Of a stretch of DNA of 43,074 nt, positions 17,955 to 30,235 are shown piece after piece. The DNA comes from Burkholderiales bacterium (GTDB lineage Bacteria > Pseudomonadota > Gammaproteobacteria > Burkholderiales > Burkholderiaceae_C). The notes beneath the pieces are model-generated. The model was not told the origin of the DNA. It saw nothing but the letters and a program-made list of their open reading frames with translations, and made no database searches. The stretch is from contig CANFPU010000015.1 in assembly GCA_947448955.1 (NCBI GenBank), positions 1 through 43,074 of the forward strand, given 5' to 3'. How positions within the stretch are numbered: the first letter of the stretch is position 1; every line of letters starts with the position of its first letter. The position numbers were made by a program, and so were the translations under genes.

Positions 17955-18038
17955 TCACCTATCCCATCACCTATCCCATCACCCATCCCATTACCCACGC
18001 CATCACCCACGCCATCACCCACCCCATCACCTAAACCA
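17955..18038. repeat. Seven-copy 12-bp tandem repeat between ruvC and the hydrolase gene
   Basis: Seven 12-base units with consensus TCACCYAYSCCA run head to tail within the 145-bp gap 17917-18061. The period is constant and only positions 2, 6 and 8-10 vary. The top strand is pyrimidine-rich, and no Shine-Dalgarno is visible for the hydrolase that starts 24 bases later. There are no unique spacers, so it is not a CRISPR array. Translation in frame would give THPITYPIT-type repeats, but no start or gene context supports a protein. Confidence 0.85.
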
Positions 18039-23449: not shown

Positions 23450-24460
23450 TCAGGCGCGCGGTCCGTCTGCAGGCCTGGTGCCCGCAACATGGTCCAGGGT
23501 TGCGGTCGACAGCAGGTACAGGCAAAGCTGCTCGTAAGAAATACCTGCCGCACGGGCTGACATCGGCACCAACGAGTGGCCGGTCATGCCGGGCGAGGTA
23601 TTCATCTCAAGCAGGAAGGGCTGGCGGTCGCTGGCGCGCACCATCAGGTCAGCGCGACCCCAGCCGCGACAACCCAATGCCCGGTAAGCGGCCACCACGA
23701 TGCGCTGGATTTCACGCTCTTCGGCCGCCGGCAGGCCACTCGGACAGAGATAGGACGTGTCGTCGGTGAAGTATTTGTTCTGGTAGTCGTACTTGCCCTC
23801 GGGCGCGACGATGCGGACCACTGGCAAGGCCCTGGCTTGGGCGCCGCTGCCAATCACCGGACAGGTCAGTTCTTCGCCTTCGATGAAGGCCTCGCACAGC
23901 AAGTCGGGGTCGTAAGTGGTGGCCAGTGTCACCGCGTCGCCGAGGTCGGAATAGCCACGGACCTTGGTGATACCGATCGACGAGCCTTCGCGCGGCGGCT
24001 TGACGATCAACGGCAGACCGAGTTCGTCGGGCACGGCACGCAAGCGCTCGCGCGATTGTTCGTCGGCGTCCAACCAGACAAAGCGCGGCGTTGGCAACCC
24101 GACCGCGCCCCAGAGGCGCTTGGTCATGGTCTTGTCCATCGCGACCGCCGACGCCATCACGCCAGAACCGGTGTAGGGGATCGCCATCAATTCCAGCGCA
24201 CCTTGCACCGTGCCGTCCTCGCCATGGCGGCCGTGCAGCGCGATAAAGACCCGGTCGAAACCCTCGCGCTTCAAATCACCCAGATCGCGACTGGCCGGGT
24301 CGAAGGCCTGCGCATTGACGCCTTGGCTGCGCAGCGCGGCGAGCACGCCGCCACCCGACAGCAGGGAGATCTCGCGCTCCGCGCTGCGACCGCCCAGCAA
24401 CACGGCGACCCGGCCCAGCGCCGCAGCGCTTACCGGCGGTAACGAGTAGGTCGCCATCAT
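23450..24460 (-). CDS. ddl: D-alanine--D-alanine ligase
   Basis: ATP-grasp enzyme that makes D-Ala-D-Ala for the pentapeptide, cytoplasmic, 336 residues. Motifs: [19 protein letters not shown] near residues 18-36, [10 protein letters not shown] in the ATP-grasp loop, [17 protein letters not shown] as the omega loop, and the metal-binding [23 protein letters not shown] use the ATG at 24460, which overlaps the murC stop as ATGA; a second ATG follows immediately at 24457. Slightly longer than the usual 300-330 because of the N-terminus and the C-terminal [14 protein letters not shown]. Confidence 0.96.
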
Positions 24461-25884
24461 GAGCACACCGCCTGTTCCAGCACCCGGCCCGGCACCGCGC
24501 CGATCGACCCGGCGCCCATCGCGATCACCACATCGCCGGCTCGGGCTTGGCGCAAGATCGCTTCGGGCAATCCAACCACATCATCAACAAACAAGGGATC
24601 GACCCGGCCGGCCAGGCGCAGCGCTCGGGCCAATGCCCGACCGTCGGCCGCGACGATCGGCGCCTCTCCTGCGGCGTAGACCTCGGTCAGCAAGACCGCG
24701 TCGGCACTGCCCAGTACCTTGACGAAGTCCTCAAAGCAGTCGCGGGTGCGGGTAAAGCGATGCGGCTGGAAAGCCAGCACCAGACGTCGGCCCGGAAAAG
24801 CACCGCGCGCGGCGGCGATCACTGCGGCCATCTCCACCGGATGGTGGCCATAGTCGTCGATCAGCGTGAATTCACCGCCGCCGTTCTGCGCCAATGCCGG
24901 CACTTCACCGCATTGCTGGAAGCGGCGACCGACACCGGCGAAACCGGCCAAGGCTCGCAGCACCGGCGCATCAGGCAGCTCAAGCTCGGCGGCCACCGCG
25001 ATCGCTGCCAACGCATTGCGCACGTTGTGTTCGCCGGGCAGGTTCAACCTGATGTTCAGATCGGGCATCCGCGCCGCTTCAAATTCCGAATATCGACGTT
25101 GACAAACGAAATGCATCTGGCCGCCGGGCAAGTGCCGCACATCGACCGCGCGGACCTGCACGTCGGCGCCCAATCCATAGCTGACCACCGGTCGCGAGAG
25201 CATCGGCAGGATGGACCGCACGCCAGGGTCGTCGCCGCAGACGATCGCCGCGCCGTAGAACGGCATGCGGTGCACGAAGTCGACGAAAGCCGACTTCAGG
25301 CGCGCAAAGTCGTGGCCATAGGTGTCCATGTGGTCGGCGTCGATGTTGGTCACGACGCTCATCACCGGCAGCAGGTTCAGGAATGACGCATCGCTCTCGT
25401 CAGCCTCGACGACGATGTAGCCACCCGACCCCAGCCGTGAATTTGCACCCGCTGAATTGAGCTTGCCGCCGATCACAAAAGTCGGGTCGACCCCGGCCTC
25501 GGCCAGTACGCTGGTCACCAACGAGGTGGTGGTGGTCTTGCCGTGGGTGCCCGCAATCGCAATGCCGGATTTCAGTCGCATCAGCTCGGCCAGCATCACC
25601 GCCCGCGGCACCACCGGAATTCGACCCGCGCGCGCAGCGACGACCTCGGGGTTGTCACCGCGAACCGCGGTGGAGGTGACGACTGCCTGGGCGCCAGTGA
25701 TGTGCTCGGCAGCGTGACCGACGAAAATTCGCAAGCCCAGGCCAGCCAGGCGGCGCGTGCTCGCACTGTCCGCCAGGTCCGAGCCCGATACCGCATAGCC
25801 CAGGTTGTGCAGGATCTCGGCAATGCCGCTCATGCCCGCGCCGCCGACGCCGACGAAGTGAATGCGCTTGACCGCGTGCTTCAT
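24457..25884 (-). CDS. murC: UDP-N-acetylmuramate--L-alanine ligase MurC
   Basis: First ligase of the stem peptide, cytoplasmic, 475 residues. It begins [25 protein letters not shown], the UDP-binding Rossmann motif of MurC. The ATP site [10 protein letters not shown] lies at 111-120, and the later [10 protein letters not shown] and FQPHRFTRT motifs are diagnostic of MurC. It overlaps murG by 4 bases (ATGA at 25881-25884) and ddl likewise. Confidence 0.98.
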
Positions 25885-26957
25885 GGCTTGCTCACCAGGC
25901 GTTCGAGTTCGTCGGCGACCCGCTCAGCCGCATGGGGCCGCGCCAGTGCGCGGGCCTGGTTGGCCATTGCCAGCAAGGCTTCCCGGCTCAAGTTTTGCAG
26001 TTGCGCTGCGAGCGATTCGGCGGTCAAGCCAGACTGCGGCAGATGCAGCGCTGCACCATGTCCGGCCAGGTACTCGGCGTTGTCGCGCTGGTGCGCGGTG
26101 GTGCTCAAGACCAGCGGCACCAACAGGCTCGGCACGCCGGCCGCGCACAACTCGCTGACCGTGACCGCGCCAGCGCGGCAGACGATCAAGTCGCAGACCG
26201 CCAGCCGCGCGGCCATGTCGTCGATGAAAGGCAAGACCTCAGCCTCAACGCCATGGCGCGCATAGGCGGCGCGCACCGCATCGAGTTGAGGCGTGCCGGT
26301 CTGGTGCACGATCCGCGGCCGCTGCTGGGCAGGCATCAGCGCCAGCGCGGCTGGCAGCGTCTGGTTGAGCACCTGCGCACCCAAGCTGCCGCCCACGACC
26401 AGCAACTGCAAAGGCCCACTGCGGCCGGCAAATCGCTCGGCCGGCGCCGGCAGCGCCTCGATCTCAGCGCGCACCGGATTGCCGGTGACCAGGCCTTGCC
26501 GGACTGCTGCGGCAGGGCCCTCGAACCCAAAGGCCACGCGGTCAGCGAAGTGCAGCAAGACCTTGTTCGACAACAGCAGCGCAGCGTCCGCATTGACCAA
26601 CAGCAGCGGCTTGCGCAGCAGGCCAGCCATCAGGCCGCCGGGCAAACAAACATAGCCACCCATGCCCAGCACCGCGCTGGCGCCGCGTCGGCGCAGTACA
26701 GCCGCAGCGTCCCAGAAGGCGCGGATCAGCCGCAGTCCACCGCCCACGCTGTGTCGCCAGCCTTTGCCGCGCATGCCGCTGAAGGCCAAGCGGTCCAGTG
26801 CGATACCGGTCGGTGGCACCAGTCGATTTTCCATGCCGGTGGTGGTGCCCAGCCAGCTCACGCTCCAGCCGCGACGCTGCAGCTCGCGGGCGACCGCGAT
26901 CCCGGGAATGATGTGGCCGCCGGTGCCAGCGGCCATGATCACGAGGTGGGGCATCAT
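25881..26957 (-). CDS. murG: Lipid II synthase MurG
   Basis: Peripheral membrane GT28 glycosyltransferase that adds GlcNAc to lipid I to give lipid II. 358 residues; the start [23 protein letters not shown] has the GTGGH loop at 11-15. Further motifs: [19 protein letters not shown], and the donor-site [27 protein letters not shown] lies 6 bases before the ATG at 26957 and 9 before the ATG at 26954; both starts are possible. This ribosome-binding site lies inside the 98-bp repeat. The frame is open further upstream, but that part is repeat DNA. Confidence 0.96.
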
Positions 26958-27174
26958 GCGCGGCCTCCGCACATCAATTGGCGATTCTGGCTTCGCCAGA
27001 GCAGCCACACTGCGCTTTGCGCAGCCGCCCTGCCCGTGCCGGGCCGGGCGCTCATGCGCGGCCTCCGCGCATGAGCTGTCTGTTCTGGCTCTGCCGGAGC
27101 AGCCACACTGCGCTTTGCGCAGCCGCCCTGCCCGTGCCGGGCCGGGCGCTCATGCGCGGCCTCCGCGCATGAGC
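26955..27174. repeat. 98-bp hairpin-rich tandem duplication at the ftsW-murG junction
   Basis: CATGCGCGGCCTCCG recurs at 26955, 27053 and 27151, exactly 98 bases apart, and the blocks between are nearly identical. Every block carries four short hairpins, each with a 3-base loop. On the plus strand these are GCTCATGCGCGG/CCT/CCGCGCATGAGC (27050-27076 and 27148-27174), TCTGGC/TTC/GCCAGA (26986-27000; imperfect copy at 27084-27098), CTGCGC/TTT/GCGCAG (27010-27024, 27108-27122) and GCCCG/TGC/CGGGC (27032-27044, 27130-27142). The copy next to murG has diverged on one hairpin arm. The array lies between the ftsW stop and the murG start and includes both. Confidence 0.93.
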
Positions 27175-28412
27175 TGTCTGTTCTCAATATCCACGCGGAC
27201 GACGATTGCTAGGGCGATCATGTTCATCAGGATTGCCGATCCGCCGTAACTCAGCAGCGGCAGCGTCAGGCCTTTGGTCGGCAACACACCCAGCGTGACA
27301 CCCATGTTGATCAAGGTCTGGCCGCCAATCCAGATGCCGATGCCTTGCGCCATCAGCCCCGCAAAGACCCGGTCCATCGCCACGGCCTGACGACCGATCA
27401 CGAAAACCCTCCGGATGAGCCAGAAAAAAGCCAGGATCACTAAGGCAACACCCAGGAAACCCAACTCCTCGCCGATCACCGCCATCAAGAAATCGGTGTG
27501 GGCCTCAGGCAGGTAATGGAGTTTCTCGACACTGCCGCCCAAGCCTTGCCCGAAAAACTCGCCGCGGCCGAAGGCGATCAGCGAGTGCGTCAGTTGGTAA
27601 CCCTTGCCTGCCGAATAGACCGGATCCCAGGGGCTCATGAACGCCAAGATGCGCTCGCGCCGGAACGGGCTGGTGGCGATCATCAACACGAACGCAGCCA
27701 GCAGCACTGCGAGACTGAGAAAGAACATCTTGCCGTTCACGCCACCCATGAACAACACACCCAGCGCCATCAGCGCGATCACGACGAAGGCGCCCATGTC
27801 AGGCTCGGCCAACAGCAACACACCGATAAAAGCCAGCGCCAGCGCCATCGGCCACACCGCCTGGATGAACCGCTCCTTGACGTCCATCTTACGGACCATG
27901 TAGCTGGCCGCGTACATCGCCATACCCAACTTGGCCAATTCGCTGGGCTGAAAATTCATCACCCCCAAGGGCAGCCAGCGCCGTGCACCGTTCACACCCT
28001 TGCCGACATGCGGAATCAGCACCACCGCGAGCAGCAGCAGCGACAGCAAAAAAATCCTGGAGGCCCACTTCTCCCAGACCTTGACCGGCACCTGCACCGC
28101 GAGGAGCGCAGCCACAAACGCGATGCCCAAGGACAGCGCGTGACGGTTCAGAAAGAAGGTGGGCGAATAGCGCGCGTACTTGGGACTGTCGGGCAGCGCG
28201 ACACTGGCCGAATAGACCATCACCAGGCCCAGGGTCAGCAATCCGACCACGCACCACACCAGCGCCGGGTCAAAGCCAGCGATCCGGGTCGGTTGATCGA
28301 TCGCCTGGCCATCCCAATTGCGGATCGGCAAGCGGTTCTCGCGCTCACTGCGCCAAGCCTGCAGGCGCTGCATCCAGGGCGCGAGGCCGATCGCCTGAGC
28401 CAGCTTGCTCAC
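27150..28412 (-). CDS. ftsW: Peptidoglycan glycosyltransferase FtsW
   Basis: SEDS-family septal glycan polymerase, partner of FtsI; multi-pass inner-membrane protein of 420 residues. Family motifs: the extracellular [25 protein letters not shown] region and the late [42 protein letters not shown] and [16 protein letters not shown]. The start is a GTG at 28412 overlapping the murD stop (GTGA); a longer open frame upstream is inside murD. The last ten residues, [10 protein letters not shown], and the stop lie inside the first copy of the 98-bp repeat. Confidence 0.95.
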
Positions 28413-30235
28413 AGCACCGCCTCGCCGCGCTCGGCGGCCCGCGCCCGCACCGCCGCCACAAACACCTCGGCCCGGTGACCGTAGTTGCGGAACATGTCCA
28501 GGCTGGCACAAGCCGGGCTCAGCAACAGCGCATCACCGGCCTGCGCCTGGTCGAAGCACCAATTCACGGCGCCCTCCAGGCTGTCATGGCGTTGGCGCGG
28601 CACACCGGCCGAGGCAGGATCGGCGGCCAACGCGGCATCGATCGTGCCGGCATCCCGTCCGATCAAGGCCACCGCCCTGGCATGCCAGGCCACAGGTTGG
28701 GTCAGCGCAGAGAAATCCTGGCCCTTGCCGTCGCCGCCCAAAATCGCCAGCAATTTGGCCGGAGCCTGATCGGCCCCCAGGCCCAGCAACGCCGCCACGG
28801 TGGCGCCAACATTGGTGCCCTTGCTGTCGTCGAAGACCTCGACACCGCCAACTCGGGCGACAAACTCAACCCGGTGCGGCTCACCGCGGTACTCGCGCAG
28901 ACCGTGCAGCATCGGCGCCAAGGGGCAATCGATCGCGCAAGCCAGCGCCAAGGCCGCCAACGCGTTGGCGGCGTTATGCCGGCCTCGCACGCGCAGTGCG
29001 TCGGCTGGCATCAACCGCTGCAGGTAGATCTCTTCATCCTGATCTTCCCCACGGCGACGCTTGAGCGTTTCGTCGACCTCACGCGCACGCACCAACCAGG
29101 CGATGCCGTTCTCGACCACCAGACCGAAATCACCAGGCCGCTGCGGTGCATCCAGTCCGAAACGAAACACCTTGCGACCAACCGATCGTGTGGGTCGGCC
29201 TCGGCCACCTTTGACGGTCACAGGTGCCGGCACCATGGCTTCGACCTGCAGGTCATCACGATTGATGACCATCACGCTTCGCTCGCCAAAGACCTTCGCC
29301 TTGGCCTCAGCATAAGCAGCCATCGATCCATGCCAATCCAGGTGGTCCGGGCTGAGATTGAGCAAGGTCGCGGCGTCAGGCTCGAAGTCCTGCATGCCGT
29401 CAAGCTGGAAGCTCGACAGCTCGAGCACCCAGACCTCAGGCAGATGCTCGAACACCGGCCCGACGGGCGAGCGGCAGGAGCCCGCCGGATCCAAGACCGT
29501 CAGCGCATCGGTCGCCTCGGCGACGTCGGCCGCCGGCTCGATCGGCTCGGCGGTTGGACCGACGGTCAGCTCGGTAGTCAGCTCGGTAATCAGCTCGGTG
29601 ATCAGCTCAGTGACCGGATGACAGACCGGCTCAGCGCTTGCCCCGAAGATCGACGCATTGATCGATGCTTCGCAAGCTGAGACCGGCAGGCCAGTCTCCA
29701 CGACCTGGACAGGCTGCGCCGGCTCCAAGGCCAGTGCCTGGGCCAGCGTGTCGAGCATCGTCGGCCCGATGTTGCCGGCTGCCGCGACCCGTAAACCGCA
29801 TCGACCCACCAGCAAAGCACACATCGCGGTGGTCGTGGTTTTGCCGTTGGTGCCGGTGATCGCTAACAGCTTGGGTGAGTATCCTCGCTCAGCCTTGAGC
29901 TCGGCCAGCGCGGCGACAAAAAGGTCTAGCTCTGCGGCCACCGCGATGCCCTGAGCCTGCGCCGCGGCCAGCAAGGGTGCGATCCGCTCATCGCCGGGCG
30001 CCAGGCCCGGGCTCTTGAGCAGCAGTTGCACGCCAGCGAGATCGACCACACCCGGCAGGCCGCTGTGCAGGCCGATCTCGGGCAAGGTCTCGCGCAGCAA
30101 CGCCGCCTGAGGCGGGTCTTCGCGAGAATCCCAGACTTGAACCTTTGCGCCCCGGCTGGCGCACCAACGTGCCATCGCCAGGCCGGAGTTCCCGAGGCCC
30201 AGTACCAGCACGTGGAGGTCAACCAATGGCGTCAT
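28409..30235 (-). CDS. murD: UDP-N-acetylmuramoylalanine--D-glutamate ligase MurD with a long insertion
   Basis: Adds D-Glu to UDP-MurNAc-L-Ala, cytoplasmic. The core is complete: [15 protein letters not shown] at the N-terminus, ATP loop GTNGKTTTT at 128-136, LELSSFQLD at 271-279, [13 protein letters not shown] at 293-305, HRVEFV near 454 and DDSKGTN at 469-475. At 608 residues it is far longer than the usual 440-500. Most of the excess is a low-complexity insertion at about residues 170-262, between the helix after the P-loop domain and the LELSSFQ strand, containing [17 protein letters not shown] second, smaller expansion with basic and acidic patches (about 341-405) is common in Burkholderiales. 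Seven bases after mraY. Confidence 0.96.
29565..29612. repeat. 12-bp tandem repeat inside murD
   Basis: Four 12-base units (plus-strand form GTCAGCTCGGTA) head to tail. They encode the TELI/TELT tetrapeptide repeat of the MurD insertion. Being a multiple of three, copy-number change keeps the reading frame. Confidence 0.88.

Follow-up and report, generated by a model that had tools for sequence, protein, structure and literature searches.

The window, by which we mean the whole stretch of 43,074 nucleotides that was analyzed, carries the genes ftsW (27150..28511), murG (25881..26957) and murC (24457..25884) one after another on the minus strand. The genes ftsW and murC were taken from the ORF list and murG (358 aa) from the chain analysis described below, and all three score above the cut-offs of their NCBIfam models (TIGR02614, 393 bits; TIGR01082, 521 bits; TIGR01133, 296 bits, respectively). 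The TTG start of ftsW at 28511 is a mechanical call of the ORF list, and the true start may be further in. The stop codon of ftsW (TGA, 27152-27150) lies inside an ATGA (27153-27150), and the ATG of murG (26957-26955) is followed by a second codon that is likewise ATG.

At the ftsW-murG junction, Tandem Repeats Finder detected a repeat with a period of 98, 2.4 copies and 92% matches (26954-27184). Anchors of 35 nt begin at 26954, 27052 and 27150, with spacings of 98 and 98, and the two full 98-bp units are 90% identical. These results confirm the tandem structure described in the earlier note and support its suggestion of an insertion that was duplicated. The blocks are not made entirely of hairpins, as had been claimed, because about a third of each block copies the 3' end of ftsW: on the minus (coding) strand, each unit consists of 63 nt of hairpins and then the 35-nt copy. 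From sequence and tail comparison, the original ftsW 3' end (AGAACAGACAGCTCATGCGCGGAGGCCGCGCATGA, 27150..27184, with the Shine-Dalgarno sequence GGAGG at 27160-27164) is followed by the hairpin part of unit 1 between the tail copies (27087..27149, delimited by repeats and folds) and by copy 1 of the ftsW end (27052..27086), which is identical in 35/35 nt and has GGAGG at 27062-27066 and ATGA at 27055-27052. The hairpin part of unit 2 (26989..27051, delimited in the same way) is followed by the diverged, murG-proximal copy 2 (26954..26988, 80% alike), with a Shine-Dalgarno sequence at 26964-26968 and the ATGATG of murG. The copied end carries GGAGG, six bases and then the ATGA in which stop and start overlap, and the whole minus-strand array extends from the final codons of ftsW into the first few codons of murG. 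The earlier note had overlooked the features that relatives keep, namely the copy of the ftsW end, the mini-ORFs that stay open and the overlaps at ATGA. No other direct repeat was found in the window (settings: at least 22 nt, within 500 bp). Tandem repeats with a period of 12 bp occur inside murD (29566-29608, 3.6 copies), where they add an in-frame run to MurD, and at 17955-18031 in the window (TCACCCACCCCA, 6.4 copies).

Perfect 12-bp stems that enclose 3-nt loops were located at 27050-27076 and 27148-27174. The window has six more perfect triloop stems, 7 or 8 bp long, which is no more than chance (8 in total in the window versus 1 to 10 in ten simulated sequences). The predicted RNA fold of the minus-strand repeat has an energy of -151.2 kcal/mol (z = -7.1) and the DNA fold one of -90.7 (z = -6.8), and each value was reached by 0/200 shuffles. 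In the minimum-energy RNA fold, a local stem forms in the middle tail copy only and the outer two tail copies pair together; the DNA fold has local stems in all three. No intrinsic terminator (G+C-rich stem and T run) was found on the coding strand, in agreement with the earlier view that the array is not a terminator, and the two matches are both on the plus strand. These plus-strand sites are the ftsW end and its copy, coinciding with the two 12-bp stems and directed against the operon, and their sequence suggests that antisense transcripts could be stopped there. A simple consensus scan found no sigma-70-like promoter at the ftsW-murG junction, and Rfam gave 0 matches at gathering score for the window and for L204, L205 and L206, three further loci considered below.

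Under a chain test that permits ATG, GTG and TTG starts and overlaps of 4 or 1 nt, ftsW, two intervening ORFs and murG form an unbroken series of 4-nt overlaps. The two relay ORFs, as we call them (27052..27153 and 26954..27055, minus strand, each of 102 nt and 33 aa), have -4/-4 spacing: the start of relay ORF 1 overlaps the ftsW stop, its stop overlaps the start of relay ORF 2, and the stop of the latter overlaps the start of murG. Because 98 is 2 modulo 3, an ORF that starts at the ATG of one ATGA runs in frame to the TGA of the following one, so that each unit is an open mini-ORF of 33 residues. Each unit also supplies its own hand-over site, because it ends in a copy of the ftsW end with its Shine-Dalgarno sequence and ATGA. 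We consider it probable (about 0.78) that the two 98-bp units are ribosome relays between ftsW and murG. Ribosomes ending ftsW would restart at the ATG within the ftsW stop and translate relay ORF 1, would restart within its stop and translate relay ORF 2, and would then restart at murG; translation of the relays would also open the hairpins. The relay peptides are probably by-products. We infer both the translation of the relays and a dependence of murG on coupling at this locus. In one published study, hardly any coupling was left at a spacing of about 20 nt in the six gene pairs tested (PMC10666635).

The ftsW-murG junction was readable in 183 of 190 loci of relatives (L007-L196), giving 165 unique junctions among the matches listed; this sample leans to the better matches of the window's FtsW, and the genomes, being related by descent, are not independent of one another. 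Among the matches listed, 105 of the 165 junctions are compact, with the ftsW stop 20 to 47 nt before the GTGG motif of murG, and 60 carry an insert, with 71 to 511 nt from stop to motif. These 60 inserts, among the same matches, comprise 56 relays (51 single, 4 double and 1 triple), 4 direct in-frame extensions of murG (L032, L035, L069 and L070) and 0 out of phase. At the ftsW stop, the overlapping start is part of ATGA in 52, GTGA in 7 and TTGA in 1 of the 60, and the single failure over all 165 junctions is L174, which has no overlapping start (both among the matches listed). When the inserts are counted per genus, with labels assigned by hand, a relay is present in 31 of the 33 genera with inserts among the matches listed and an out-of-phase insert in none; with one insert per genus, the probability of none out of phase is 1.5e-6 if phase is free. 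A further sample consisted of named loci from Rhizobacter, Roseateles, Piscinibacter, Rubrivivax, Aquabacterium, Curvibacter, Polaromonas, Comamonas and other Burkholderiales, of which 74 of 80 were parsed (15 already in the first sample, 59 new). The 59 new junctions contain 14 inserts, namely 13 relays and one murG extension (L302), again with 0 out of phase; L286, which is without an insert, has no overlapping start.

The relays themselves vary widely. There are two in L007, two over three repeat units in L008 and three in L010, and 8 of the 18 readable junctions from the same genus are compact. The relay of L102 has five codons, and relay ORFs of 63 to 486 nt with unlike sequences all obey one phase rule. 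Three long inserts (L064, L101 and L271; 511, 466 and 544 nt from stop to motif), with one relay ORF each, have in common the coding stretch QALCFG(D/Y)FHLG(P/Q)QMK, which is perhaps a common mobile sequence. The relay of L086 is an in-frame series of three nearly identical repeats, each about 25 codons long.

The next junction behaves similarly. In the window, the murC start directly overlaps the murG stop; relatives carry relays at murG-murC, where 24 of 25 unique inserts are relays. In the exception, L372, the relay stop lies one base before the murC ATG. The first set (49 of 51 sufficiently long loci read) has 31 compact junctions, 17/17 inserts that are relays and one 7-nt gap. A set of 60 genomes, which overlaps this first set of 49, has 38 direct junctions, 19 relays, two 7-nt gaps and one broken junction (L372); the 7-nt gaps, which have no overlapping start, belong to L073/L352 (one genome) and L358. 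A copy of the murC head is clear in 16 of the 25 inserts (score 14 or more) and ends at TTCGTCG in 14 of these 16. A plain tandem duplication was rejected for this junction, as a murG tail copy reaches a score of 12 in 0/25.

The ftsA-ftsZ and ftsZ-lpxC spacers further down the operon are, in contrast, free in phase. In the 60-genome set, we read 60 ftsW-murG junctions (overlapping the main sample, with counts kept apart), 60 murG-murC, 28 murC-ddl, 57 ftsA-ftsZ and 34 ftsZ-lpxC junctions. At murC-ddl, 25 of 28 are direct, 2 are relays and one (L395) has no overlapping start. At the control junction ftsA-ftsZ, distances of 0, 1 and 2 modulo 3 occur 24, 12 and 21 times, 43 of 57 have no start at the stop and 7 of 57 connect too. 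At ftsZ-lpxC, for which the lpxC motif used is loose, the corresponding numbers are 11, 10 and 13, with no start at the stop in 21 of 34 and 3 of 34 connecting. The sequences themselves establish that the ftsW end is copied, that the frames are open and overlap, and that relatives follow the phase rule, and inserts in the wrong phase would presumably have been removed by selection. The openness of the frames by itself is no argument here: shuffled inserts of the same length retained a connected chain in 77% and deletions of 1-2 nt in 70%, partly because an in-frame fusion to murG was counted too. Open frames are cheap in this GC-rich DNA, and the case rests on phase; this null was set aside as a weak test superseded by the phase test.

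The main alternative is an RNA element: the hairpins would govern mRNA stability, processing or the ftsW:murG ratio, and the open frames would be incidental. The folding of this part of the window, which is very strong (z about -7), would fit such an element, as would the hairpins seen by eye in many inserts; in addition, the mycobacterial interspersed repetitive units (MIRUs) located between senX3 and regX3 reportedly drive a separate expression of regX3 (PMC4213456). We nevertheless regard it as unlikely, since unlike inserts with relay ORFs of such different lengths share the phase rule, and neither an Rfam family at gathering score in the window nor a sigma-70-like promoter at the junction in the simple scan was found.

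The 98-bp unit occurs at one place in the 4.5-Mb assembly of the window's genome (324 contigs, 95% complete), where the next DNA matches are weak. Of the 372 ORF ends examined in 443 kb of this genome (the window and 20 stretches of 20 kb), the ftsW end alone is copied downstream: ftsW scores 37 and the shadow ORF of the 98-bp repeat 47, the others score at most 12, and the control maximum is 12. On these two results, a dispersed repeat in this genome was rejected, and the dispersed REP-like family that had been proposed is not supported here. The refuting condition set in the earlier note, absence of the unit from the rest of the genome and from relatives, fails for the relatives, in which comparable inserts are common at ftsW-murG.

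Longer units in relatives have a hairpin block that was found in 23 of 300 family genomes at 29 places, 10 of which are at ftsW-murG by position, and at none in the window's genome. Through intermediates such as L010 and L131, the short hairpin of the window appears to be a member of this block. Copies of gene ends were inspected at 20 chosen loci, namely 17 of the 29 places (one of them an ftsW site) and L204-L206; gene families were searched for L204, L205, L210, L221, L227 and L231, and the other loci were read by eye. The copy is clear for nrdA (L204, L221), acetate-CoA ligase (L210, L227) and a xerC-like gene that scores below the family cut-off (L205), and copies of the acetate-CoA ligase end in L229 and L230 were assigned by matching C-termini. 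It is weak at sucC (L231) and in L212, the hairpin unit alone repeats in L215 and L236, and no gene-end copy was seen at L206, L209, L213, L214, L219, L225, L226 and L235. In L204, L205, L210, L221, L227, L229 and L230, the hairpin block stands beside the copied gene ends, partly in tandem. In L206, a hairpin block around 1500 lies upstream of a putative metX (by eye) and has no Rfam match. The block is possibly an element that copies gene ends, as far as its surroundings indicate. At these other gene ends, the repeat copies are spaced by 2 modulo 3 in 3 of 10 cases, two of the ten being repeats of the hairpin unit. L205 offers an example away from the cell-wall operon: two tandem relays (47 and 48 aa, 140-bp unit) connect the xerC-like gene to a long ORF, with ATGA overlaps throughout and the last relay stop overlapping the ATG of the long ORF, and L204 has a relay-like ORF after nrdA with no evident partner gene.

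A selfish or neutral insertion of hairpins with tandem duplication and no selection on translation would account for a low-copy block at other gene ends, several with that end copied, and for the different copy numbers in genomes of the same genus (L007, L008 and L010, with 8/18 compact). This explanation is quite improbable, because 0 of 74 ftsW-murG inserts are out of phase, whereas all three phases occur at the control spacers.

The peptides show what the relays have and do not have in common. An FtsW-like tail peptide ends 36 of the 74 inserts and 14 of the 74 share the hairpin-block peptide, with nothing evident in common among the remainder. In the DNA, a copied ftsW end with a score of at least 12 was found in 33 of the 60 inserts of the first sample (among the matches listed). 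The copy often resembles the tail of its own genome (L011, L029, L121 and L164), which suggests that these copies arose by local copying or gene conversion. Fourteen loci read the shared hairpin block in one frame, which gives the SDVK peptide, and 3 read it in another; both readings are present within one genus; the shared SDVK frame may reflect common descent or some peptide constraint. L087 and L108, from one genus, share insert DNA whose middle is read in different frames, and length differences of 1 nt and 65 nt cancel, so that the final phase is kept. The tail copy that matches best in L108, L121 and L149 is spaced 0 modulo 3 and is passed in the wrong frame; the relay ORF nonetheless continues to a later murG start. 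Since relay peptides differ, as do the frames in which homologous DNA is read, what relatives keep appears to be the hand-over rather than the peptide. That the mini-ORFs encode a functional small protein is the least probable reading and a poor one for most loci, since the unlike peptide groups, sharing at most the FtsW tail or the hairpin-block peptide, and the frame switches of that block, even within one genus, outweigh its use of one frame in fourteen loci and the conserved 56-aa relay of L056, L057 and L059 (one genus), which resembles an ordinary small protein and may be a real one.

Returning to the ribosome relays, we tentatively propose, as a possibility well short of an even chance, that the coupled junctions within the division and cell-wall operon of this family accept inserts only as sequence-free relays, re-formed by a hairpin element that copies gene ends or starts, and that the copy number could tune MurG:FtsW. 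If so, the element would copy the end (ftsW) or start (murC) of the adjacent gene and land with its own hand-over site, a tandem copy number of 0 to 3 could tune MurG relative to FtsW, and relays could revert cleanly by deletion between copies. By comparing the junctions, one can also test how strict the need for translational coupling is: at two junctions of a cell-wall operon, inserts of very different sequence nearly always either would pass the ribosome to the following gene or lengthen that gene in frame. For annotation, they are a warning that a short ORF lying between two genes of an operon may be a relay whose peptide has no function, and natural variants with 0, 1, 2 and 3 relays are usable for measuring the ribosome loss per hand-over.

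REP and BIME elements are palindromes at gene ends, and in this they are like the 98-bp unit, which differs in not being dispersed in this genome. No published account of relay ORFs at ftsW-murG was found in the open-access literature, which is not proof of absence. The nearest likeness is to the MIRUs, short and apparently mobile repeats that insert at start codons with an internal ORF coupled at -4, an arrangement thought to limit harm to expression (accessible part of a 2025 review, PMC12548453); the accessible part of PMC2413405 contains no description of MIRU structure. The units between senX3 and regX3 are 77 bp and 53 bp long in the accessible text of PMC4213456, both 2 modulo 3 like 98, and the -4 spacing of the internal ORF to the flanking gene is present here too, as read from the sequence. 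The 98-bp unit differs in being at one place in its genome rather than interspersed, in holding a copy, specific to its locus, of the end of the upstream gene, and in that unlike sequences play the same role in relatives; as to mobility, the hairpin block stands at other gene ends in other genera and at none in the window's genome. The relays would work like MIRUs, a likeness by description that implies no common ancestry. A functional parallel exists in the short ORFs of integron attC sites and in ORF-11 of attI1, which bring ribosomes through stem-loops or to the next gene by termination-reinitiation (PMC8876359, accessible part), whereas the ftsW-murG relays sit in a chromosomal operon for division and the cell wall. 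Among overlapping gene pairs (ATGA, TGATG), 13 of 14 tested were strictly coupled by termination-reinitiation, according to the part of PMC6728339 that was accessible; the hand-over step is the same but direct in those pairs, and here one to three added ORFs bridge the insert.
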